Virus record (IMG/VR): IMGVR_UViG_3300044617_001032
Location: 1 to 38,711 of that record
DNA from: a virus
Reading direction: 5' to 3' (one strand)
DNA: 38,711 bases
The position numbers and the translations under genes are program-made. Position 1 is the first letter of the stretch. Each line of letters begins with the position of its first letter. Below the pieces are notes generated by a model. That model did not search any database. It had not been told where the DNA came from and saw only the letters and a program-made list of their open reading frames with translations. Below, one piece after another: positions 3,370 to 34,636 of the stretch.

Positions 3370-4206
3370 ATGATTTACCGCCCCAAAATTAAAGTACATT
3401 CTAATGAAGAAGTAGAATATTGGAAAAACATAATAAATGAAAAGCGCCGACAAAACAAAAGCCTTCAGCGCTGGTTAGTTGTTTCAGATGTACACAGGCC
3501 GTTTCATAATCAGATACTTTGGCAAAAGCTATTAAGGCTTATATCTGAACTCGGCACTAATTTACACGGCATTGTTTTAGCGGGTGATTATTTAGATCTT
3601 TATACACTTGGCAGCTATAATGCCGAATCATTATCTAACTTATCGGGCCTAACATTGCAGGATGAATATATAGACGGATTGCAAGGCATTGACGATATTA
3701 ACAGCGCGTTTAAAGGTGCTAAGAAATATTTTTTATTTGGCAACCATGAAGACCGATACTTCAGGCACATCAAAGAAAAGGATAACGCAAAATATGGCGG
3801 TGCGTTAATAAATCCTACTGATGCCTTATACCTGTACGAACGTGGATGGGAAGTTAAAACAGATTGGCAGTCTGACTATTTCACGCTTGGCAAACACTTA
3901 GATATAGTTCACGGCGTTTACACATCTATTCACGCGGCAAAAGCGCACTTAGACAAAACGCAGCACTCAGTTATGTTTGGCCATACGCACCGGGTTCAAT
4001 GCTATCACTCAGGTAATAGGGCCGCGTTTAATATTGGCGGGCTATATGATATCAAATCAAAAGGTTTTAGCTATATGCCGAGATTTCAACGTCAATTGTG
4101 GGCTAATGGTTTCGCCATCGTCAATATAAATGACAATGGCGATTTTTACGTAGAACAGGTTAACGTTTGGGCAGATAAGTTTTTAGCTAACGGTAAGATG
4201 TACTAA
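3370..4206 (+). CDS. Calcineurin-like metallophosphoesterase
   Basis: All signature blocks of the calcineurin-like phosphoesterase fold are present in order across 278 residues: SDVHRP (D-x-H) near residue 39, GDYLDL (G-D-x-x-D) near 74, GNHED near 125, a VHG near 180 and GHTHR near 204. These bind two metal ions and the catalytic His. The enzyme hydrolyses a phosphoester, but the substrate is not visible; phage relatives are sometimes DNA-processing or cyclic-nucleotide enzymes. It starts 4 bases after terL and ends the + strand packaging operon, facing a - strand operon across a hairpin. A similar phosphoesterase next to terminase genes is seen in other phages, so a role near packaging or DNA ends is possible but inferred. 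Confidence 0.85.
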   Translation: MIYRPKIKVHSNEEVEYWKNIINEKRRQNKSLQRWLVVSDVHRPFHNQILWQKLLRLISELGTNLHGIVLAGDYLDLYTLGSYNAESLSNLSGLTLQDEYIDGLQGIDDINSAFKGAKKYFLFGNHEDRYFRHIKEKDNAKYGGALINPTDALYLYERGWEVKTDWQSDYFTLGKHLDIVHGVYTSIHAAKAHLDKTQHSVMFGHTHRVQCYHSGNRAAFNIGGLYDIKSKGFSYMPRFQRQLWANGFAIVNINDNGDFYVEQVNVWADKFLANGKMY

Positions 4207-4244: not shown

Positions 4245-4643
4245 TCACAAATTGTGACTTCGTATAAACATAGTAGTATAAGGATGGCCGCCGCCTGTAA
4301 ACATTATACCTTTATAAGGCCAATTGAAATGATTAGTAATATGCAGCTGCCAATGCTCCCAAGGCGTTTTGTACTTAGGTTCTTTAAAGTCTAACCAAAA
4401 GTATGCCCTGTGCGTTTTTAGTTCGTTATTTAATAATGAAACCCACGAATAATAACGCGATTCTGATTCTAAAACTGAATAATGCCGCGATGGCTGCCAG
4501 AATTTAAAGCGCTTATGTTTTCTGTAAAACTTACGGGTTAACGGAAAACATTTAAACGAATCATTAAGGATTAAACCAAGTTCAATATTATCACTATGAC
4601 CGCTTAAAATTAGTTCGCGTATCGATTTAGATTCCGTTTGCAT
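4245..4643 (-). CDS. Unknown protein, last gene of the sigma factor operon
   Basis: This 132-residue protein is not recognised. It begins with a short helical segment (SIRELILSGHSDNIELGLIL) of a type common at the start of uncharacterised Bacteroidota proteins. The rest is unusually rich in aromatic and basic residues (many Trp, Tyr, Phe, His, Lys), suggesting a compact nucleic-acid- or protein-binding fold. There is no signal peptide or membrane segment. Its start overlaps the end of the sigma factor gene by 17 bases, so it is translated with it, which makes a role as a sigma partner or early regulator conceivable. That is inference from position only. Confidence 0.6.
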   Translation of the reverse strand: MQTESKSIRELILSGHSDNIELGLILNDSFKCFPLTRKFYRKHKRFKFWQPSRHYSVLESESRYYSWVSLLNNELKTHRAYFWLDFKEPKYKTPWEHWQLHITNHFNWPYKGIMFTGGGHPYTTMFIRSHNL

Positions 4644-5394
4644 ACTTATTTCTTATTTTTTTATACGCTTGTTTTTCTATTTGCCTGACACGTTCACGGC
4701 AAACTTTTAGTTTTTCCGCTACTTGGCTTAAATCTTGCGGAAAGGTATCAAAGTATCTATACCTTAAAACTTCTAATTCACGGCCTGTTAAACATTCGGT
4801 AACTTCGTAGTAAAGTTCTTTAAGTTCTAACTGTAAAACGTGTTTATCTGTTTGGTCATCAGATGCGACTTGATAAATAATATCGCCATCAAAATTAGTA
4901 TCGTCTAAGCTAACGAAGCCTGTAATACTTTGAGCTGATTTAATAATATTTTCAGGTATGTTTAGTTTTTCCGATAACAGGTAACTATCTGTTTCTTCAT
5001 ACTTACCTATTTGGTATCGAACTTGAGATATTCGATGCGGCAGCCTTACGCAGTTTTTCTTAGTATCAATAAAGTCTTTAATGTAGCGCTGAATCTGAAA
5101 TAATGCGTAACTTATAAACTTGTTATCATATGCCGGGTTAAATGTATCGGCCGCTTTGATTAGGCCAAACATAGCTTCACTAATTAAATCCATTATATCA
5201 ACATTTGCAGTATCGTAACGGAACGCAACTGATGCGGCAAATAACATATTGTGATTGATTAGTTGTTCGCGTGTTGCGGTCCGTTCCTGTTCGAATGTTA
5301 GCGGCTTATACTTTTGTGCTTCGGTTAAGAACTGCTGTAGAATACCTTTTTTGTTTCGGTGGTTATTGCCTTTAATATCTATATGCTTAATCAT
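4627..5394 (-). CDS. Phage-encoded sigma-70 family RNA polymerase sigma factor
   Basis: The 255-residue protein has a full region 2 (about residues 45-115: LINHNMLFAASVAFRYD...DLISEAMFGLIKAADTF...FISYALFQIQRYIKDFI), which binds the polymerase clamp and the -10 element. A region 3 segment (about 118-160) and a region 4 helix-turn-helix near the C-terminus (LTGRELEVLRYRYF...RERVRQIEKQAYKKIR) follow. It lacks region 1.1, as alternative sigmas do, but resembles primary-type sigmas more than ECF factors because region 3 is present. It should redirect host RNA polymerase to phage promoters. It lies in a four-gene - strand unit driven by a host-like promoter at 6080-6110, divergent from the + strand tail operon. 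That is the layout expected for an early-made activator of late genes. Confidence 0.88.
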   Translation of the reverse strand: MIKHIDIKGNNHRNKKGILQQFLTEAQKYKPLTFEQERTATREQLINHNMLFAASVAFRYDTANVDIMDLISEAMFGLIKAADTFNPAYDNKFISYALFQIQRYIKDFIDTKKNCVRLPHRISQVRYQIGKYEETDSYLLSEKLNIPENIIKSAQSITGFVSLDDTNFDGDIIYQVASDDQTDKHVLQLELKELYYEVTECLTGRELEVLRYRYFDTFPQDLSQVAEKLKVCRERVRQIEKQAYKKIRNKYANGI

Positions 5395-5698
5395 AAGTGT
5401 AAAATTGATAAAAGTTTAAAACTTGTTGTGATGTACGGCGGCAAATAAACGCATCTTTATGCGCCCGTTTCCACGTGGTTAGCATTATTTCTGCTTCTTC
5501 AAGTGTGTTGTAAACAAACATAATCCGGTATAGGCTATCAATTTGTTCTACTTGCGCCTGTTCTATTGTACACATCGCTAAATGTTCAGCGCGTATAAAT
5601 TCAGGGTGTCGCGTGCTAAGTATCTGAATGCAGTACATAGTGTCCGTTTGCGCGTATGCTGCCGCGCTAAATAGTAAAATAAAAAGTAATGTTTTCAT
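5387..5698 (-). CDS. Small secreted or periplasmic protein of unknown function
   Basis: I start this gene at the ATG ending at 5698 (103 residues) rather than 29 codons earlier. This start gives a clean signal peptide (MKTLLFILLFSAAAYAQ, with cleavage expected after AYA) and is preceded by the AAAACTTCACA leader motif seen before other - strand genes. The mature part has CIQILSTRHPEFIRAEHL and a later EEAEIMLTTWKRAHKDAF stretch. This resembles a SPOR-like pattern (sensing of peptidoglycan denuded of side chains): a QI-type first strand followed by an EEAE..L..W helix. That similarity is weak. The stop overlaps the sigma gene start by 8 bases. Export of a small protein from an early operon could mean host envelope modification. 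Confidence 0.6.
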   Translation of the reverse strand: MKTLLFILLFSAAAYAQTDTMYCIQILSTRHPEFIRAEHLAMCTIEQAQVEQIDSLYRIMFVYNTLEEAEIMLTTWKRAHKDAFICRRTSQQVLNFYQFYTYD

Positions 5699-5762
5699 GT
5701 TGTGAAGTTTTAAAGTGTTAAAAAATTCGGTTTTGTAGGTTAACCGAAAACCTTTGATGAGG

Positions 5763-6026
5763 TTAATCAGTAATATCTTTTGCACTTATTGAAGGTGCCA
5801 TAGAATAAGAACCCAAAGAAATATATTCAACGCCATTATATGACTGGATCATGCGCGTAATTTTTTCAGAATTAGGCTGCTGAAACTTTTGAAAAGTTAC
5901 AGTTTTTGCAGTTCTTTTCAGACAAATAAATTTTGTCTTTGATTGGCTGTCAACAATAGAAGACTTTGCATAAACTGAATGCACTTCGAATGCTTTGTTT
6001 GCTGGTTGTTTTGTTTCGTATGTCAT
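5763..6026 (-). CDS. Unknown protein, first gene of the sigma factor operon
   Basis: The 87-residue product is not recognised. Its sequence alternates short beta-like segments (VHSVYAKSSIV, KFICLKRTAKTVTF, EYISLGSYSMAP) and has a basic centre, which fits a small beta-barrel or nucleic-acid-binding fold. It has no membrane segment. The ATG ending at 6026 is preceded by AAAAACTTCACATC, the same leader found before the secreted-protein gene downstream, and the promoter at 6080-6110 gives a leader of about 50 bases. A 64-base gap containing a second copy of the leader separates it from the next gene. Confidence 0.55.
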   Translation of the reverse strand: MTYETKQPANKAFEVHSVYAKSSIVDSQSKTKFICLKRTAKTVTFQKFQQPNSEKITRMIQSYNGVEYISLGSYSMAPSISAKDITD

Positions 6027-6079
6027 GATGTGAAGTTTTTAAAAGTGTTTAAATAATTCCGTTCCCTTATTTGTCAATA

Positions 6080-6110
6080 CAAAATTACACCTAATTTTCA
6101 GAACTGCAAA
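6080..6110 (-). promoter_or_regulatory. Bacteroidota-type promoter for the sigma factor operon
   Basis: On the - strand, TTTG (6107-6110) is followed after 19 bases by TAATTTTG (6080-6087), a full match to TTTG-N19-21-TAnnTTTG. It points at the gene ending at 6026 and the sigma factor gene behind it. This fits early reading by the unmodified host polymerase. Confidence 0.7.
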
Positions 6111-6112
6111 TA

Positions 6113-6162
6113 ATTTTATAAAAATTTTATAAAATATTTTATCTTTTTTTGCCCTAACTTTA
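6113..6162 (+). promoter_or_regulatory. AT tandem repeat and weak promoter before the tail operon
   Basis: ATTTTATAAAA occurs twice back to back (6113-6123 and 6124-6134), followed by TATTTTATC. Two degenerate -7-like boxes follow, TATCTTTT at 6140-6147 and TAACTTTA at 6155-6162, with no TTTG at the -33 distance. This is where a promoter for the + strand tail operon would be expected. The missing -33 box would fit dependence on the phage sigma factor. Confidence 0.35.
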
Positions 6163-6180
6163 CAACCAAATTAAATACAC

Positions 6181-6741
6181 ATGATTTTTAGAAAACGAAA
6201 CAGGGCTGAACAAAACGAAAGTAATTACCAGAAGTGGCTTAAAACCTACATTCCCGAAACTACAAAGCAGCGCATAGAATTGACAAGAGTATTTACTGAC
6301 CGCGCTGGTAATAACTTTTACATTTTAAAAAATCCTGCAAACCTAACGCGTGAACGTGCGCAAAGGATTGAAGAAGCAATGACCGCTATTGATTTTGGTA
6401 TTCACAAAACAGAAGTAGTTGAAAAGCTAAACGGCATTTTAGAAACGGTTGAAGAAATGCCATGGCAAAACATGACACGCGATAAGCTAAAAGAATTTCA
6501 TACTAAGTCTAAGGACCAATTGAACGACATTCTTTACAGGCTTAAAAGCGTTAAGTTAGATGATCTATTATTAGAAGCTGGTTTGTATTTCTTTTATATT
6601 GATGGTGAAAACCCCTATATTATAAATTCAGAAACACAGCAGCGCAAAATGGATGCAATCAAAAAAGATGACGAACTGCGCGCTTTTTTTTTGAACAGTA
6701 TAGAACAAATATTGAAAGGTTCGAGCGCTTTAAAAGATTAA
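6181..6741 (+). CDS. Tail assembly chaperone, short form (lambda gpG-like)
   Basis: The 186-residue protein stands directly before the tape measure gene, the fixed place of tail assembly chaperones in long-tailed phages. It is mainly helical and charged, with no signal or membrane segment. Near its C-terminus the frame runs through a T9 stretch (6684-6692), and a -1 shift there opens a second frame up to the tape measure start, as in lambda G/GT. The chaperone coats the tape measure protein before tube assembly and is not part of the virion. The family diverges too fast for direct recognition, so the call rests on position, frameshift and length. Confidence 0.7.
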   Translation: MIFRKRNRAEQNESNYQKWLKTYIPETTKQRIELTRVFTDRAGNNFYILKNPANLTRERAQRIEEAMTAIDFGIHKTEVVEKLNGILETVEEMPWQNMTRDKLKEFHTKSKDQLNDILYRLKSVKLDDLLLEAGLYFFYIDGENPYIINSETQQRKMDAIKKDDELRAFFLNSIEQILKGSSALKD

Positions 6742-14547: not shown

Positions 14548-14555
14548 TATCTTTG
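14548..14555 (+). promoter_or_regulatory. Late promoter candidate (TATCTTTG box)
   Basis: TATCTTTG matches the Bacteroidota -7 consensus TAnnTTTG and is identical to the box before the capsid gene. No TTTG lies 19-21 bases upstream, only a T-rich stretch. The box ends 7 bases before the ATG at 14563, so the message would start with almost no leader. A phage-sigma-dependent promoter is one explanation. Confidence 0.4.
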
Positions 14556-14562
14556 CGAATAT

Positions 14563-15519
14563 ATGTTAGTAAATTATCCTGTTTCATATACGCCCGAAAT
14601 TAGTAGGACATATTCTTTTAGGCAGCCTGTACCGATTCGGTATGCCTGCCCTGTTTTGCCGCCTAATTTTATGCAGAATTTTAATGATGCGTGGAACTGT
14701 AATTTATGCGGTTCTGATTTGCCGTTTTATATTCCGTATGTTGAGGGCGATATTATACCATTTCAAACACAGGTTACTGATAATTACAATCAGCCTAATA
14801 GCGTTTTAGTAGCAGGCTTTCAAACAAGTACAAGTACATCGCATTATGTAGTAGTTAGCTTATATGATTGTTGTGGTGAAAATTTAATAAGTTCATTTAT
14901 TGATGATTTTTCAGATAGTTACCACGTAGGTCAAAGCCTTGCAACAGGCAGCATTCAAACGTGGTTTGTTAATACAGGTTTGTTCCCAGCTGATTTGGAT
15001 TGCTTTAGATTGTACATTGATTATTACAAAATAAATCAGATAACTTTAGAACCTGAAATAGATAAAAGACTTTATACAGAATACTATAAAAAGGTCGAAG
15101 GCTGCGGCAACTTAAACGATACTGCACTAATTTATAGTACTTATGCAAATTATGATTGCAACGGTAATTTTTACGGAACTTTAACTAACTATTTAGGTTC
15201 TAATAATACACCCTTTTACAATTTACTTCGTATTTTTGGAACTGTTGAGTTCTTTGGAGATACTGAAGCGATAACAGAAAATGACAGAAATGTAGTTATT
15301 AGTAAAGATATAACAGAAAATTACGGCATTATTTCGGGCGCTGTGCCACCGTTTTACATTAAGTTACTACAACAAGCTGTGAGAGGCAATTACGTAACTG
15401 TTGATGGTGTGCAGTATCAAAACTTTAGATATGATTCTAAACCTGAAGATAACCGTATGTTTTTGTTAGATTTGTCATTTGACAAAAAATGTCGATTAGA
15501 TAACAAACAATGTAGATGA
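14563..15519 (+). CDS. Unknown structural protein, tail region
   Basis: I start at the ATG at 14563 (318 residues). An in-frame TTG six codons earlier would run into the promoter-like box. The protein has many Tyr, Phe and Cys, including paired cysteines (CNLCGS about residue 45, YDCCGE about 105), and beta-type composition without membrane segments. It is not recognised. It lies between the large tail protein and the tail tube gene, and a 38-base gap follows it. Likely a baseplate, tail-tip or decoration protein. Confidence 0.55.
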   Translation: MLVNYPVSYTPEISRTYSFRQPVPIRYACPVLPPNFMQNFNDAWNCNLCGSDLPFYIPYVEGDIIPFQTQVTDNYNQPNSVLVAGFQTSTSTSHYVVVSLYDCCGENLISSFIDDFSDSYHVGQSLATGSIQTWFVNTGLFPADLDCFRLYIDYYKINQITLEPEIDKRLYTEYYKKVEGCGNLNDTALIYSTYANYDCNGNFYGTLTNYLGSNNTPFYNLLRIFGTVEFFGDTEAITENDRNVVISKDITENYGIISGAVPPFYIKLLQQAVRGNYVTVDGVQYQNFRYDSKPEDNRMFLLDLSFDKKCRLDNKQCR

Positions 15520-16485: not shown

Positions 16486-18216
16486 ATGAACATAGAACAG
16501 TTTTACGAATTTTTAAATACTGTAAATGCTACAATACTAAACCCGCCTGTACACCCATTCAAAGCGGATTGGAAGCGTATTTATGAAAGCATTAAGCCTC
16601 ACTTCTACGGTGAAGTGCCGCCCGCGTTAGATAAAGCATTTCCAAATGAAGATGAACAGATATTAAACTATCGTAAAAATACATATCAGCCTAAAACAGA
16701 ATCGCCATTGGTTAAAGCTATAACCGAATTGCATAGGCTTTTAAGTTCTGCTAAGCATTCTGTTAGGTTTGAAAATATGGACATGCAGCAATTTGCCGAA
16801 AATGAAAAGTTCGGCGAAAATAATTTACAGTCTTTTGTATTTTCTGTTTTTATTCCTAATCGCGTACTTGACCCTAACGCCGTTTTACTTATCGAACCTA
16901 AAGGCGAAGGTATTGAAACCGATAACGTGCGCGTTAATGTAGATATGAAAGTAATTCAGTCTGATAGGATTGTTTTTAATGACCCTGAATACAGACTTCT
17001 AATATATAAAGGCATATCAAAAAACAAATATGCTACCTTAGGTATTGAAAACCCGCTATACTATCACATTGTAACTGATATGTTTTATGCACAGGCCCGC
17101 GCCTATGGTGATAAAACAATGTTTGAGGTTATCTATGAACACAACAGCGGTATAATGCCGTGGGTAACTTTAGGCGGTCGCGTTGTACCTAAATATGATT
17201 CTTATGGCAATACGTTTAAAATTTATAAGTCTGATTTTAGCCCTGCAATACCTTATTTAAATGATGCTGCTATTTTTGATAATCAGCACAAATCTGTTAT
17301 GCTTGCGACATGCTTCCCTATTAAATTTGTTGAAGGGGTTGATTGTAACAGTTGTAATGGTGTGGGCCGCGTACCTGATCCAAATAATTCCGATAATAGC
17401 ATAACTTGTAAAACTTGTCACGGGCACGGCAAAGTGCTAAGTATAACGCCATTGGCAGCGTATAACTTAAATCCTACTACATCTAAGTTTGGCGATAATG
17501 ATAAGCAGCAAGTTGAACCAATACGTTATTATTCGCCTGATGTTAGCACAATTCAAGAAACTAACAAAGTAGCTTCTGAAGCATTAGGCAAAGCAGAACA
17601 AGTACTAAATATCAATCGTAGTTTAAAAGCTGCACAATCGGGCGTGGCTAAAGAATTAGACCGCGAACCAGAATACATAGAAGTAGGTAAAATAAGCGAT
17701 GATGTTTATGCGCGTTATAAAGATGTTTTGCGTATTATTCAAGCCATTGTATTTATGGATACTGAAAGTGCAATTATGGTTAACGCGCCTATTAGTTTTG
17801 ACCTTAAAACAGAAACAGAACTAATGGCAGAATTTGCACTATCGCAAAAAGGTTTACCAACTGCTATACGTTATGAAAGTTATATAAGCTATGTTGATCG
17901 CCGTTACAATTCAGATGCAATAGCGCGCCAAATAGCTACCATTTGCGCTATGTATAACAGCGCTTATCTTTATACGGTAGATGAACGCGTAAATTTGTTA
18001 GCATCGGGCCAAATAACAGAAAAGGATGCAATAAGCGCGCAGTTTGTTTTTGATGCTGTTACTGAATTATATTATGATGAAGGATTTGATATTATGAACA
18101 ATGATTACACAGCTATTAAAAACGCTATTGATGCAAAGTTAGCACCGCGTTTTGATGCTGTTGCAAGTAATGTAATTCCCGAAGTTAATATGGATGAGTT
18201 TAATAATGCTGAATAA
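16486..18216 (+). CDS. Portal protein with an inserted DnaJ-like zinc motif pair
   Basis: The 576-residue product has the size and place of a portal protein: it is followed with a one-base overlap by a MuF gene and then scaffold and capsid genes. Its C-terminal half is helical (IQETNKVASEALGKAEQVLNI and on), as in portal stem and wing regions. Unusually it carries two CxxCxGxG motifs, CNSCNGVG (Cys287, Cys290) and CKTCHGHG (Cys308, Cys311), like two of the four repeats in the DnaJ zinc-finger domain. They probably bind one zinc ion and build a small knob on the portal ring. The portal forms the dodecameric gate for DNA. The portal call is by context; the zinc motif is seen directly. Confidence 0.7.
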   Translation: MNIEQFYEFLNTVNATILNPPVHPFKADWKRIYESIKPHFYGEVPPALDKAFPNEDEQILNYRKNTYQPKTESPLVKAITELHRLLSSAKHSVRFENMDMQQFAENEKFGENNLQSFVFSVFIPNRVLDPNAVLLIEPKGEGIETDNVRVNVDMKVIQSDRIVFNDPEYRLLIYKGISKNKYATLGIENPLYYHIVTDMFYAQARAYGDKTMFEVIYEHNSGIMPWVTLGGRVVPKYDSYGNTFKIYKSDFSPAIPYLNDAAIFDNQHKSVMLATCFPIKFVEGVDCNSCNGVGRVPDPNNSDNSITCKTCHGHGKVLSITPLAAYNLNPTTSKFGDNDKQQVEPIRYYSPDVSTIQETNKVASEALGKAEQVLNINRSLKAAQSGVAKELDREPEYIEVGKISDDVYARYKDVLRIIQAIVFMDTESAIMVNAPISFDLKTETELMAEFALSQKGLPTAIRYESYISYVDRRYNSDAIARQIATICAMYNSAYLYTVDERVNLLASGQITEKDAISAQFVFDAVTELYYDEGFDIMNNDYTAIKNAIDAKLAPRFDAVASNVIPEVNMDEFNNAE

Positions 18217-19808
18217 TGGACTTCAACAAACCTGAACGAATTAACGACAAAGCATTAGAAATTTTACAAAAGCGGTTTGACAAAGTAGAACCGAAATTTG
18301 TAAAACAAGTTGTTGATTGGATAAATAAGTTTAGAACAACATCAGGCAATTTAGTAAGGTCTAAAGAAAACATAGCGCGTTTAAGTTCGTTTAAAACAGC
18401 TGTTAATAGGTTTTTAGAAAAGGCTGGTTATAATGTAATGGTTTCGGGTTTTTTAGAAAACTTTGACGAAATTGGCGCAAATACACAACTTGCGCAACAA
18501 GAATTGAACGGCATTGATATAACAAAAAGTTTTTTGAATCCATTTAGAAGATATGCTGTTAATAATGTAATAGCGGCGATGCAAGGCCAAGGCTTAAATG
18601 TAAATCTAATAAACCCGCTTAAAAATGAATTACTAATTGCAGTTAACCAAGGTAGCAGTTTAACAGATGTTGTTACTTCAATAGCAGGCCAATTAACAAC
18701 TACTGAAGCGCGGCAAGGCGTTTTAAAAAGAATTAGTTTACAGGCCTCACGTGACGCGTTATTACAGTATGATGGTGTAGTAAACGAAGCGGTCCGAAAA
18801 TCTTATAAGATGGATGCTTTGCTTTACGTTGGTTCTATTGTTAAGGATAGCCGCGCACAATGTGAACGGTGGGTTAGTGAAACAAAAAACGGTAAATTAG
18901 GTTTGATATTATTTGAAGATTTGCAAAGCGAAATTGATTGGGCTGATAATAACGGTACAGGTATGATACCCGATACAACGCCTGAAAACTTTTGTCAAAA
19001 TCGCGGCGGTTATAATTGTAGGCATATCGCTTACCCGGTACGTTCGGCTAATTATATTAAAGAGGAAAAACCAAAAGAAGAAGCACCTAAAGAACCCGAA
19101 GTTAAGGAGCCTGAATTTGTTGAAGCTAAAACAATCAAAGAAGCAAAATTAAAAACAAAAGAAATTTTTGATAATGCTAATATACCAATTGATAAAATTA
19201 GTTTTTCAAATGATTTGACATTGGAAGATTTAAATGAAAGAAATAAACAATTTAATAATTTAACAACTTCTTACAAATTAGAAGGATTTGAAAAACCTGT
19301 TTTAATAGCAAATAAAAGTAATAAATCATATTATGGTGTAGTTTATACATCTTATAATAGAACAACTAAAAAAACTTATGTATCTAAAGCAAATTTTGGA
19401 GATAAAACAGACCCAACTCAAAGAATACAATCATTAGAAGAAGAAAAATTACAATATTCTAAAAATAAAAAAAGAAGTAAATCAAGAGTTGATGAAAAAA
19501 ATAATAAATTAGCGACTTTAACTCATGAATTTGCACATTTTACTGTAACAACTACAAAAGCAGGATATGGTGATAAAACCGCTAAAGATTTTTTTGAAGA
19601 ACTAAAAGATATAAGAACAGAATATAAAAAAGAAATAAATGATGTTGTTAATACTAATGATTTTTTTGATATATTTTTAGGTAAATATGCGGATACTAAT
19701 TTAGATGAATTTTTAGCAGAAGGATTTACAGAATATAAATTAAGGGCAAAACCATCAAAATATGCTTTAAAAATTGGTAAACTATTTGATAAATATTATA
19801 AAAAATAA
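18216..19808 (+). CDS. MuF-type head protein fused to a zincin-like metalloprotease domain
   Basis: The 530-residue protein has an N-terminal MuF/head morphogenesis part (about residues 1-275), with the typical end DSRAQCERWV ... NRGGYNCRHIAYPV. A Lys/Glu/Pro-rich linker (about 277-305) leads to a C-terminal domain with the zinc-protease motif HEFAH (His437, Glu438, His441). A further Glu502 (DEFLAEGFTEY) fits a third zinc ligand. MuF proteins sit at the portal inside the head and enter the host with the DNA, and known MuF families carry exchangeable C-terminal toxin or effector domains. From about 19150 on, the DNA is more AT-rich than the MuF half, which supports domain exchange. It follows the portal gene with a one-base overlap. 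Protease activity and target are inferred. Confidence 0.8.
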   Translation: MDFNKPERINDKALEILQKRFDKVEPKFVKQVVDWINKFRTTSGNLVRSKENIARLSSFKTAVNRFLEKAGYNVMVSGFLENFDEIGANTQLAQQELNGIDITKSFLNPFRRYAVNNVIAAMQGQGLNVNLINPLKNELLIAVNQGSSLTDVVTSIAGQLTTTEARQGVLKRISLQASRDALLQYDGVVNEAVRKSYKMDALLYVGSIVKDSRAQCERWVSETKNGKLGLILFEDLQSEIDWADNNGTGMIPDTTPENFCQNRGGYNCRHIAYPVRSANYIKEEKPKEEAPKEPEVKEPEFVEAKTIKEAKLKTKEIFDNANIPIDKISFSNDLTLEDLNERNKQFNNLTTSYKLEGFEKPVLIANKSNKSYYGVVYTSYNRTTKKTYVSKANFGDKTDPTQRIQSLEEEKLQYSKNKKRSKSRVDEKNNKLATLTHEFAHFTVTTTKAGYGDKTAKDFFEELKDIRTEYKKEINDVVNTNDFFDIFLGKYADTNLDEFLAEGFTEYKLRAKPSKYALKIGKLFDKYYKK

Positions 19809-22057: not shown

Positions 22058-22103
22058 TATAAAAAATTTATAAAATTATTTATTTTAAAACATCTTATCT
22101 TTG
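22058..22103 (+). promoter_or_regulatory. Capsid gene promoter candidate
   Basis: TATCTTTG at 22096-22103 matches the Bacteroidota -7 box and is identical to the box at 14548. No TTTG lies at the -33 distance. An AT-rich stretch with TATAAAAAATTTATAAAA (22059-22076) precedes it, similar to the AT repeats at 6113 and 35285. It would drive the capsid gene after a leader of about 110 bases. Confidence 0.55.
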
Positions 22104-22217
22104 CAGTAACGACCTCTCACAAAAATAGGGTGCTGCGGCACAGAAAAAAAACAGAACGCTGGCAGCGTGGAAAATGCCAAACAAAAAACAATTTTTTATA
22201 TTATTAAATTACAATAA
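22104..22217 (+). promoter_or_regulatory. Structured leader of the capsid mRNA
   Basis: The untranslated leader has two small hairpins: GTGC/GCAC (22130-22141) and ACGCT/AGCGT (22156-22168), separated by an A-rich stretch, and then an A-rich region up to the ATG. There is no Shine-Dalgarno sequence. Such a leader may protect the message or aid ribosome loading. Function is inferred. Confidence 0.4.
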
Positions 22218-23936
22218 ATGTCAACTATAAAACTCGCTGATGCGTGGAAAATTATAGACATATCGCTGAATAACAACAGCGGCATGCGTTCTATGCCATC
22301 TCCAAACATCGGTCTTTTGCAATTGCTTGTTTCTGCTGCTAATAAGTCAGCATCTCAGGTAAAACTTGGCAACGTTCAAGCCGTTGAGCAAGGTAACGGT
22401 AAAGTGTACAAAGTTGCACGCCGTTTTTTCCCGCGTCTTTCTGAATCTAACGCTACAAGTTTAGAATATTGCCCTACTGATGGCGATGTAGTTAAGCCGC
22501 TTTATGATGAAGTAGAAATTACTAACAAAACAGTTTCACAGAAAATTAAAATTGACGATGAACTGATTCGTTGTATTAAAGAAAGCCGTGCGGATTATCA
22601 AAACAGCTACGTTAATGAAGTACTAAGAAATCACATTAACAGACTTGGTAAAGAAGTTGCTACAGTTGTAGCTAATAACGGTTTTATCGGTTCATTTGTT
22701 AAATGCGATTGTGCTGATCCTGCTGTTACTTCTAAGTCTTTGCCTTTATTCCTTTCAAGTGGTTTAGGTATCAATCCTGTTGGTGAATCTATTTTAGATA
22801 GCGATCGCAAACAAGCTGAAATTGAACAACAATTGATTTTGGTTGGTGGTACTTTGCTTGACCAATACCGCAAAGCGCGTGTTATTGCATCTGGTAATGA
22901 CAATGGTTTTGATGCTTCTTTGCTTGAAATTACACGTTCTATTTACTACGATACTAACCTACCTGCTGCATTAGGTAACACAAGCGATATTATCGCAATG
23001 GCACCGGGTGCACTTCAACTTGTAACTTACGCAAAGAACAAAGGTCAGTTTACTTATGACTTTGAAGATCAAATGCGTACTACTGTTGTTGACCCATGGT
23101 TAGGCATCGAACATGACGTTGTTATGTCATACGTTAAGTGTAATGATGAAATTGAACTTTACATTCAATTCGCTACTAACTGGGCCGTAGTTGGTATGCC
23201 TAAATGTTGGGCCGTTAATGACTGTTTATTTGATGGCGTTCTTGACGTATTTAAATATCAAGTTGTTTGTGCTGACACAGGATATTGCGATATTGAACCA
23301 GCTTGCGGTTTTGTTGCTGCACCAAATGCAACTGATGCAACATTCTGCGAATCTGCTGATGCTTGCGATGTAGCATGTAGTGCTTTGTTCTATTCAAGAG
23401 AAGTTGAAGTTGAGCAATTTGAAGGTATTGAAGTTGATGTAACTGATGCTATTGCAATTCAAATTAACGGCTTACCATTTAGTGTAGGTGGTACTTTTGA
23501 TACTGGTACTTCAGGTGGTGCTAATGGTTTTGTTGCCGCTGCACAGGCTGCCCTTGCAAGTGTTGGTTCAATTTACACAGTTGCAGGTGGTTGGGATGGA
23601 ACAGCATTAACAATCTATGTTTTAACTAATGCTACTGTAACATCGGTTGTTATTGTTTCTGCTACAACTACAGATGTTGCGCTTACAGTTTCTACTGAAA
23701 CACTTTACAATGTTTATAGTGCTTCAACGCCTTCAACAGGTGCAAGCCTTACTAACCTTGATTGGGTTTTAGATTCAAATTCATTTGATGGTGCGCCTAC
23801 TGCACAAATTTTAGGCGAAACAAATGTATTTGGAACTTATAGCAATTTCTACACTACAAGTACTAATACAGGTGCTGCACAGCTTACTATTACTGATAGC
23901 GCTGCATGCAACGATACTTTTAACGGTACAATTTAG
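22218..23936 (+). CDS. Major capsid protein
   Basis: The 572-residue protein follows scaffold and stands alone between two strong terminators, which fits the most abundant virion protein. The first 340 residues look like an HK97-fold capsid of Bacteroidota phages: N-terminal arm, a long helix with KTVSQKIKIDDELIRCI (about 95-112), and IYIQF/DPWLGIEHDVVMSYV-type segments near 295-320. The C-terminal 200 residues form a separate low-complexity beta region rich in Ala, Thr, Ser and Val (about 395-560), perhaps a surface domain. Cysteines are frequent (KCDCAD near 162, VVCADTGYCDIEPACG near 352, a cluster near 378-391). It is longer than the usual 300-400 residues because of this extension. Confidence 0.75.
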   Translation: MSTIKLADAWKIIDISLNNNSGMRSMPSPNIGLLQLLVSAANKSASQVKLGNVQAVEQGNGKVYKVARRFFPRLSESNATSLEYCPTDGDVVKPLYDEVEITNKTVSQKIKIDDELIRCIKESRADYQNSYVNEVLRNHINRLGKEVATVVANNGFIGSFVKCDCADPAVTSKSLPLFLSSGLGINPVGESILDSDRKQAEIEQQLILVGGTLLDQYRKARVIASGNDNGFDASLLEITRSIYYDTNLPAALGNTSDIIAMAPGALQLVTYAKNKGQFTYDFEDQMRTTVVDPWLGIEHDVVMSYVKCNDEIELYIQFATNWAVVGMPKCWAVNDCLFDGVLDVFKYQVVCADTGYCDIEPACGFVAAPNATDATFCESADACDVACSALFYSREVEVEQFEGIEVDVTDAIAIQINGLPFSVGGTFDTGTSGGANGFVAAAQAALASVGSIYTVAGGWDGTALTIYVLTNATVTSVVIVSATTTDVALTVSTETLYNVYSASTPSTGASLTNLDWVLDSNSFDGAPTAQILGETNVFGTYSNFYTTSTNTGAAQLTITDSAACNDTFNGTI

Positions 23937-31437: not shown

Positions 31438-31872
31438 TTATATAAATTTTACTAATTCATCAATTTTAGGAACTCTAATATATTTTTTCTTTTCAATGCT
31501 ATTCATAATTCGAACCCGCGATATGCCAAAATATAAACATGCTGCATCAACAGACATAAAGTTAATAATTGTATCATTGGATAGCACAGCTTTAACGTGA
31601 CGGTTTTGTTTTGGAATTTTACCAAGCTGTTCTTTAGCTGCATTTCGATTCTGAATGTATTTATAAACTGATTCAGCAGTTACTAAGCATTCTGTTTTTA
31701 TATTGCCTAAAGAAACAAAATCTTCAAAATGCTTTACAAATATTTCATCGGGTTTTGCTTCGGTTAAATATCCAAAATTTATTAGCTGTCTTATTCTGGT
31801 ACCAGCATAGTTAGGATTCTTAGCGCCGTTAGGTTTTATTAGCTGCATCGCTTGCTCAAACGTTAAATACAT
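31438..31872 (-). CDS. NUMOD1-like putative DNA-binding protein
   Basis: The 144-residue protein has no full recognised domain, but its C-terminal part (about 105-131, SVDAACLYFGISRVRIMNSIEKKKYI) is like the NUMOD1 helix-turn-helix used by homing endonucleases and related regulators to bind DNA. The N-terminal part (TFEQAMQLIKPNGAKNP...IRQLINFGYL) may be a second winged HTH-like unit. No nuclease motif is seen, so a regulator rather than a homing nuclease is my guess. A strong terminator sits 11 bases before its start codon, so its expression depends on read-through or an unseen promoter. Confidence 0.5.
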   Translation of the reverse strand: MYLTFEQAMQLIKPNGAKNPNYAGTRIRQLINFGYLTEAKPDEIFVKHFEDFVSLGNIKTECLVTAESVYKYIQNRNAAKEQLGKIPKQNRHVKAVLSNDTIINFMSVDAACLYFGISRVRIMNSIEKKKYIRVPKIDELVKFI

Positions 31873-31883
31873 ATCTTATTTTT

Positions 31884-31916
31884 AAAAAAAAACCGCCTGA
31901 ACTTCAAAACAGGCGG
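31884..31916 (-). terminator. - strand terminator downstream of ssb
   Basis: On the - strand, CCGCCTG and CAGGCGG (31893-31899 and 31910-31916) form a perfect 7-bp stem around a 10-base loop, followed by nine T (31884-31892). It would stop much of the transcription coming from ssb before the NUMOD1-like gene. Confidence 0.88.
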
Positions 31917-31979
31917 CCCAAACTAAAGACCAATGAGTACAACAAAGAAAAAATAAGATTTTATTTTAATATTTGCAAC

Positions 31980-32336: not shown

Positions 32337-32550
32337 CGTATTTTTTTTTATTTGTTAAAGAATGATTATTAGCTTTTAATTTTCCCTTTGACCAGATATT
32401 AAAGTCATCGAAAAAAAATGTTTTTACATCGCCTAATTTATAATATTGATTTTCACGTGTGCAGATAGCTTTGTAATTACCCATCGGTAAATGCTGAATT
32501 ATTAGCCATTCATCGCCTTCTGTCTTATCGTGAAAAAATCGGTACATCAT
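32308..32550 (-). CDS. Unknown small protein between endolysin and ssb
   Basis: I use the ATG ending at 32550 (80 residues); longer starts (e.g. 32565 or 32622) would reach deeper into the endolysin gene. The sequence is a beta-type N-terminal part (EWLIIQHLPMGNYKAICTRENQYYKLG) and a basic C-terminal tail (KKKYDGKPRYANW), without known motif. It overlaps ssb by 29 bases, so it is translated with it. Basic tail suggests DNA binding, but that is a guess. Confidence 0.5.
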   Translation of the reverse strand: MMYRFFHDKTEGDEWLIIQHLPMGNYKAICTRENQYYKLGDVKTFFFDDFNIWSKGKLKANNHSLTNKKKYDGKPRYANW

Positions 32551-33049
32551 AAACCCAAAGGTCATATTTTTCAATGACACTAATAAGTATTTCAGCATAT
32601 TTTTTTTCGGTTGCATATCCACATTTTTTTAGACCGTGTGCCCATGCTTTATAATTTAATCTGCTTAGCTTTGTTAGGTGTCTATAATGCTTAGATGTTA
32701 GCAGCTTCGAATGATCACGATATGACCACCATGCAGATTTGTAAACTTGAAACTTATCGCGTGGTGTATCGTCTTTGTAAATCGCATATTTGCCCCTACC
32801 GCGATACTTTACACCAAAGTGATTGTTATGCTTAACCGCTAAACTTGAACGGCCTGCATTGCTTTCTATAATGCCCTGAGCTAATGTTATGCTTACAGGT
32901 ATATTATAAAGTTTTGCTTCTTGCTTTGCAGTCTTTAAAAAGCGGTTTATATAACGTTCAATGTGGTTTTGTTTTGGCTGCTTTTTTAGTGCCGGGAATG
33001 TAGCAGAAGTAAATAGCACTACTGCCAAAATTAAAATTGCTGTTTTCAT
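32525..33049 (-). CDS. Exported endolysin, GH73-type N-acetylglucosaminidase
   Basis: The 174-residue protein has an N-terminal signal peptide (MKTAILILAVVLFTSATFPA) and the FlgJ-like glucosaminidase pattern: an N-terminal helix, ITLAQGIIESNAGRSSLA (about 54-71, with the likely catalytic Glu in GIIESN), NNHFGVKYRG (about 75-84) and a late WAHGLKKCGYAT. It cuts the glycan of host peptidoglycan. The signal peptide implies Sec export, so the enzyme reaches the wall without a large holin hole. It follows a small membrane-protein gene by 6 bases, and lies in the - strand region although it is a late function; perhaps it is held inactive or translated late. Confidence 0.85.
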   Translation of the reverse strand: MKTAILILAVVLFTSATFPALKKQPKQNHIERYINRFLKTAKQEAKLYNIPVSITLAQGIIESNAGRSSLAVKHNNHFGVKYRGRGKYAIYKDDTPRDKFQVYKSAWWSYRDHSKLLTSKHYRHLTKLSRLNYKAWAHGLKKCGYATEKKYAEILISVIEKYDLWVYDVPIFSR

Positions 33050-34171: not shown

Positions 34172-34323
34172 TTTTTTTTATCAATTAACAAAATTAAACC
34201 GATACCAAGACATAAGCCGCCTATAAATGCAAATACTAACATAAGATAAAGTTTTTCAAGTGTTAAGGCCATTGTTAAACCAACTAATAAGCCAGCGCAA
34301 GCGCTAATAATTATATCTTTCAT
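34168..34323 (-). CDS. Small membrane protein (51 residues)
   Basis: I use the ATG ending at 34323, giving 51 residues with two membrane helices (about 2-19 and 25-45) and a basic end (LLIDKKK). It overlaps the gene before it by 20 bases, and its stop overlaps the ATG at 34171. Unknown function; two-helix small proteins in early operons can be envelope or exclusion factors, which is only a guess. Confidence 0.55.
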   Translation of the reverse strand: MKDIIISACAGLLVGLTMALTLEKLYLMLVFAFIGGLCLGIGLILLIDKKK

Positions 34324-34636
34324 ATAGAAGATCATCAAGTTGGTTATGAATTTGGTTGTCAATATAAGCATCGTAATCTGATTCGTTTTGACTGCTTAAA
34401 CATTCTTGCAAAAGTTCTTCAACTTCGTCATAAGTCATATTGAGCATTATTGCAAGTTCATCAGTTGTGTATTCAGTATCATCTATTGTAGTGCTAAGAA
34501 TCTCAAAAAAAGCATCTTCATCGGGTTCAAGTGGTACGCCGTATTTATCGCGAGATCCGCGGCAATATTCATTGTATTCTCCTGTAATAACTAATGTTTT
34601 GTCGTTTGGCATTAAATAATCTGTTGTCGTTTTCAT
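34304..34636 (-). CDS. Acidic unknown protein
   Basis: The 110-residue product is rich in Asp, Glu and Tyr (EPDEDAFFEIL, SDYDAYIDNQI) with helices TTDELAIMLNMTYDEVEELLQ. Such acidic small phage proteins can mimic DNA and block host proteins, but this is only composition. No known motif. The start follows a TTTAAAAACTTC leader variant. Confidence 0.6.
   Translation of the reverse strand: MKTTTDYLMPNDKTLVITGEYNEYCRGSRDKYGVPLEPDEDAFFEILSTTIDDTEYTTDELAIMLNMTYDEVEELLQECLSSQNESDYDAYIDNQIHNQLDDLLYERYNY

Follow-up and report, generated by a model that had tools for sequence, protein, structure and literature searches.

We found a sigma factor gene that is fixed in its phage clade and kept under purifying selection, yet occurs as deeply divergent alleles between conserved neighbours. 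Its product, encoded in the genome of a lake virus (a stretch of 38,711 nucleotides, hereafter the window), is a sigma-70 factor related to the SigA of Bacteroidota. This pattern is what we report as new, and a sigma that is fixed but hypervariable is the most interesting part of the analysis. An early-to-late role for it is plausible. As the best reading of that role, held with somewhat less than even confidence, we propose a phage sigma that is made early and favours those promoters of the phage that have a −7 box only.

The sigma gene sits in a leftward operon (6026 to 4245), divergent from a rightward gene at 6181. The genes concerned are as follows.

4245–4643, minus strand: open reading frame 3′ of the sigma gene, 132 amino acids, overlapping it by 17 nt; present in 20 of 20 genomes
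4627–5394, minus strand: phage sigma-70 family factor, 255 amino acids, with a degenerate region 1.2 and regions 2, 3, 3.2 and 4
5387–5785, minus strand: second open reading frame of the sigma operon, variable, with a signal-peptide-like stretch at its start, counted from an internal ATG
5763–6026, minus strand: first open reading frame of the sigma operon, 87 amino acids, without a homologue in the 16 related genomes compared
6181–6741, plus strand: conserved 186-amino-acid gene heading the rightward structural cluster

Early genes run leftward and the structural cluster runs rightward, an opposite-strand layout that is common in phages with their own sigma factor or RNA polymerase (PMC4331800). 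The product of 4245–4643 was considered as a partner of the sigma and rejected because its divergence does not track the sigma alleles.

Relatives of the sigma occur at 69 loci in IMG/VR. Within the clade, terminase identity is 94–99%, compared with 43 to 98% for the sigma. The gene is present in all 20 genomes compared; among 80 TerL loci it was found in 62, and the other 18 end before its position, so that it is present in 62 of 62 informative loci. Of the 41 genes shared by the 20 genomes, only one is more divergent than the sigma gene, whose median identity is 47%, whereas its neighbours 3370–4206 and 6181–6741 are 93.5% identical; in some genome pairs the nucleotide identity is 58% in the sigma gene and 87–90% in the flanks. 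The dN/dS ratio is about 0.08–0.18 against nearer alleles, and the gene is therefore maintained by purifying selection. The pattern points to an exchange of alleles at the sigma locus, or else to very uneven evolution there.

One interpretation, which we consider unlikely, is that the sigma is a swappable specificity cassette, in which near-relatives that share packaging and structural genes exchange deep alleles under selection while the late promoters remain unchanged. If so, promoter recognition and sigma sequence would evolve separately, and the selection would be for escaping inhibitors of the host or for shutting out competing phages. Allelic diversity as strong as this also resembles that of host-facing genes, and the sigma may instead mainly reprogramme or block host transcription, by competing for core polymerase or acting on chosen host genes, with phage promoters not its main target. 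Sporulation-like phage sigmas that have such a role and are dispensable in lytic growth are known (PMC9429907), and the early operon around the gene is variable and includes small uncharacterized open reading frames. However, a core function would better suit a gene that is universally present and sits where early and late genes meet, and we regard a role aimed mainly at the host as quite improbable.

Other genes of the window are also variable. The small terminase gene (1489–1914) is about as variable as the sigma, being 46–54% identical or unrelated in many relatives (large subunit, 94–99%), and its alleles do not track those of the sigma. The most divergent shared gene is 34304–34636, in the early leftward block (median identity, 44%).

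The preliminary description of the protein as a full sigma-70 factor with regions 2, 3 and 4 was upheld by profile and structure comparisons. Reading frame 4627–5394 matches the Pfam profiles Sigma70_r2 (E = 7e-11, 42 bits; curated cut-off, 24) and Sigma70_r4 (E = 2e-11, 44 bits; curated cut-off, 24.1), and the nearest solved structures in a PDB search are RpoD proteins. Its best PHROG match is PHROG 351, sigma factors (E = 9e-37), but this is a broad family. In the AlphaFold2 model (pLDDT 75, pTM 0.54) the sigma domains are helical throughout, and the top Foldseek match is sigmaS (3e-9), with TM-scores that are low because the domain arrangement is uncertain. The statement that phage sigma factors of this type are not common outside T4- and SPO1-like phages was too strong: sigma-70 relatives were found by tblastn in 87 phage-collection records, and the cases of phiEco32 and 7-11 are published (PMC4331800). 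The nearest of the collection records are only about 30% identical to the window sigma, and Bacteroidota phage sigma factors hardly appear in the literature searched. Four distant phages (L099, L100, L101 and L102), with no match to the window terminase, have sigmas that are 34–36% identical to it, an endolysin-like gene (a relative of 32525–33049) directly upstream of the sigma gene, and host-type promoters of the form TTTG-N18/19-TAnnTTTGT.

Candidate promoters in the window fall into two architectures, with and without TTTG at −33.

6107–6110, minus strand: TTTG, the host-type −33 element in the promoter of the sigma operon
6080–6087, minus strand: −7 box TAATTTTG in the same promoter, at a spacing of N19 from TTTG, with the AT-rich upstream element TTATAAAATTTTTATAAAA
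35254–35283, minus strand: second host-type promoter, TTTG-N18-TATCTTCG, heading a leftward block of small genes (35155 to 30124)
6155–6162, plus strand: −7 box TAACTTTA followed by CA, without TTTG at −33; divergent promoter for the gene at 6181
14548–14555, plus strand: −7 box TATCTTTG followed by C, without TTTG at −33; serves the gene at 14563
22096–22103, plus strand: −7 box TATCTTTG followed by CA, without TTTG at −33; the gene at 22218 follows after a 114-nt leader

As was claimed, the sigma operon has a promoter of the host type known from Bacteroidota, TTTG-N19-TAATTTTG, which is conserved and lies between divergent operons. Within this promoter (6080–6110 on the minus strand), the −7 box is kept in all of the approximately 50 aligned relatives, in which the spacer sequence varies; most of them have TTTG as the −33 element and a few have a degraded form. 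Matches to the two-box pattern within the window do not exceed chance by themselves (2 found versus 3.3 expected); over 17 related genomes the spacing of the pattern peaks at 18–19 in noncoding DNA (22 of 29), whereas coding DNA shows no such peak (26 of 96).

The boxes before 14563 and 22218 are identical and lack TTTG at −33, as first described, and aligned upstream regions of relatives keep both. This octamer is over-represented in the window (9 copies versus 2.5 expected), and 14548 and 22096 are its only intergenic copies. The box at 6155, which the preliminary description did not list, is conserved as well, with the consensus TAnCTTT[AG]CA in all of the approximately 50 relatives. A search among the late promoters for a common −33 motif at fixed spacing found only AT-rich DNA at varying distances, with TAAAAT about 25 or 28 nt from the box. 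The gene at 14563 is near-leaderless (7 nt lie between the −7 box and the ATG, for an expected leader of about 3 nt), a layout that is conserved in relatives and similar in the sister phage G042. A further candidate, TACTTTTGCC upstream of terS, was set aside as an extra late promoter; a 430-nt leader with a terminator-like hairpin follows it, and some matches to its pattern are probably coding.

Across the sigma-bearing clade, the base after the box is C in all four orthologous groups without the −33 element (6155, 14548, 22096 and the replication operon), compared with T or A in 38 of 38 distinct early-type promoters. The single C row in the early-type table, outside the 38, is the 14563-type promoter of one relative (G023) with a chance TTTG. 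Because this type of box with its C also stands before a replication operon in relatives (an XRE-like open reading frame, then a helicase), the class is not strictly late, and we rejected the strict rule that C after the box marks late promoters. The C may be preferred by the phage sigma, inherited from a common ancestor or due to chance, the promoter groups being few and not independent.

Regions 2.3–2.4 and 4.2 of sigma factors read DNA, and regions 1.2–2.2 bind core polymerase. Between the deepest alleles, the core-binding regions 1.2–2.2 are 67–72% identical, compared with 36–38% for 2.3–2.4 and 42% for 4.2; region 2.1–2.2 (DIMDLISEAMFGLIKAAD) aligns with host SigA and is 67% identical between these alleles. 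For the host side we took 23 Bacteroidota sigma sequences out of genomes, some of them from overlapping loci, with a SigA query; only the genome sequences that it fetched serve as evidence. The phage sigma resembles Bacteroidota SigA (sigma-ABfr type) in the KFISYA core of region 2.3, in the RERVRQI of the window allele and in −7 boxes of the TAnnTTTG type, but is only 28–34% identical to it overall, is shorter and has a degenerate region 1.2. No cellular relatives of the phage sigma turned up in a scan of genomes, and an unrooted tree places the phage rows together, separate from those of the hosts, on long branches whose joins may be false.

The −33-reading helix of region 4.2, RERVRQI, is identical in the window sigma and in every host row of the alignment, and the SigA contact residues of this region are kept. 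In region 2.3–2.4, by contrast, the nearly invariant host sequence AVWWIRQSILQ is replaced by ALFQIQRYIKD in the window allele, in which the tryptophan pair and RQ of primary sigmas (SigA, group 1) become FQ and QR. The C alleles have YR or YQ there, and their region 4.2 helix is altered relative to the host, with its first arginine changed to G in most rows. The sigma has therefore changed most in the part that faces the −7 region and the promoters differ at −33, the reverse of what was predicted at first, namely that the phage sigma has a different −33 preference. Such a new specificity defining the late promoters would fit the late boxes without TTTG at −33, the AT-rich DNA found there and the changed arginine of the C alleles. 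It was not borne out, and we now find it hardly credible: the window allele keeps the helix of all host sigma sequences sampled, the late promoters have no common motif at fixed −33 spacing, and −7-only promoters also occur in ordinary Bacteroidota and in sister phages without a detectable sigma.

At sites unlinked to the sigma gene, the late boxes do not follow its alleles. Alleles that are 43–49% identical, with differing contact residues, go with nearly identical late boxes, and alleles as distant as A and C share the same boxes at 14548 and 22096. Covariation of box with allele was absent at unlinked promoters and was rejected overall, being seen only at the linked 6155 promoter, where L083 and G004 break it.

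Relatives of the 6181 gene at 55–73% identity belong to sister phages (TerL identity, 71–78%). We searched nine sister records (12 to 47 kb) for a sigma with the family profile and Pfam Sigma70_r2 and found none; the Pfam search did give matches in control genomes. Some of these records may be partial, and a sigma that has diverged far enough could have escaped. In the sister phage G041 the orthologues of the phosphoesterase and 6181 genes are 27 nt apart, which suggests that the sigma operon, which the 6155 divergent promoter accompanies, was inserted between these genes in the other clade. The sister phages have both promoter architectures. Their two-box promoters have TTTG or TTG at N18/19 and C after the box in 0 of 6 cases, and −7-only boxes precede the orthologues of 22218 (next base T, T, C and A), of 14563 (C, C, C and T; two of these boxes are imperfect) and, in one pair, of 6181. 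On these records, the missing −33 box therefore does not depend on the phage sigma.

Promoters with a −7 box only are normal in Bacteroidota: a −33 element could not be identified in Flavobacterium johnsoniae promoters (PMC7366714), and the sigmaA motifs of F. psychrophilum are variations on TAnnTTTG at −12 to −5 (PMC9723704). We sampled 0.8 Mb of sequence from five genomes of Bacteroidota. Ahead of tandem genes, boxes were 2.8 times as frequent in sense as in antisense orientation, TTTG at −33 was rare and C followed the box in 14 of 47 cases; these statistics are a weak guide to the phage's own host and come from a simple gene caller. These observations, the same architecture at the same genes in the sister phages and the lack of allele tracking at unlinked sites all favour a close rival to our proposal. 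In it the −7-only promoters are ordinary host SigA promoters, timing comes from a repressor, from how strong each promoter is or from how many templates replication has made, and the sigma acts elsewhere or only as a booster. We take this to be a serious possibility, with perhaps one chance in three or a little better. It does not account for the fixation of the sigma (62 of 62 loci), for its purifying selection or for the C that uniformly follows the −7-only boxes of the clade that has the sigma, and the sister records on which it leans may be partial or contain a sigma too divergent to be detected.

In our preferred reading, the sigma would be made early from a host-type promoter (TTTG-N18/19-TAnnTTTG), bind host core RNA polymerase through its conserved regions 2.1–2.2 and compete with host SigA. 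It would then raise initiation at the second class of promoters, which have the −7 box TAnCTTTrC and AT-rich DNA without TTTG at −33, and which precede the structural-cluster genes 6181, 14563 and 22218 and, in relatives, the replication operon; their use and timing are predicted. No new −33 preference is included. We favour this reading because of the sigma fold and domains, the fixation and purifying selection, the greater conservation of core-binding than of DNA-reading regions, the conserved host-type promoter, the leftward-early and rightward-structural layout, a C after the box that is uniform in the no-33 groups of the clade and mixed in the sigma-less sisters, and a 6155 promoter that accompanies the operon where one sister phage has a 27-nt gap. 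Against it, the −7-only promoters at the same genes in sister phages look like ordinary host promoters, divergent alleles go with nearly identical late boxes, region 4.2 of the window allele is host-like, and the box followed by C is neither strictly late nor uncommon in host promoters.

Known phage systems offer partial parallels. Late promoters of T4, read by gp55, have a −10-type element but lack a −35; gp55 itself has no region 4 and depends on gp33 and gp45. The absence of an upstream element is shared with the late promoters described here, but the window sigma has region 4. SPO1 promoters clearly differ from host promoters, whereas the candidate promoters here share the host −7 box and a single sigma was found. 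In SPO1, the phage sigmas gp28 and gp34 direct later gene classes (PMC9429907). There is also a likeness in strategy to phiEco32 and 7-11, in which host promoters provide the first phage sigma, the structural genes lie on the strand opposite to the functional ones and phage-type promoters are of low copy (PMC4331800). The sigma gene here likewise lies under a host-type promoter. However, the sigmas of those phages are distant from SigA and act with an anti-sigma factor, none of which was recognized here, and both promoter types of the window have the same core −7 box. On a promoter class confined to sigma-bearing phages the observations point both ways: −7-only promoters also occur in phages without a detectable sigma, and a uniform C after the box is seen in the clade with the sigma alone, in few groups. 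With sister phages that have and lack the sigma, orthologous structural genes and alleles that differ at more than half of their positions, the clade is a natural experiment in how phages come by a sigma, what such a factor contributes at host-readable promoters and why its sequence diverges so far while the promoters stay.

Several further elements were observed. The 114-nt leader of 22218 (22104–22217) contains a conserved RNA element, CCTCTCAC, with two hairpins and GCAGCGTGGAAAATGCC; one pair is changed on both sides (G-C to A-U), the element is recognizable in some sister phages without sigma, and a comparison with Rfam gave no match. Upstream of the small terminase gene, TGTTACA occurs six times, both strands counted, within 145 nt of AT-rich DNA (1182–1326), possibly a packaging or origin site. 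A strongly conserved hairpin resembling an intrinsic terminator, CCGCCTG-TTTTGAAGTT-CAGGCGG followed by T8, lies before the gene at 31872 (31873–31979, minus strand). The open reading frame at 18216–19808 encodes 530 amino acids here and about 284 (the first 53%) in relatives, consistent with a C-terminal extension or fusion in the window phage.
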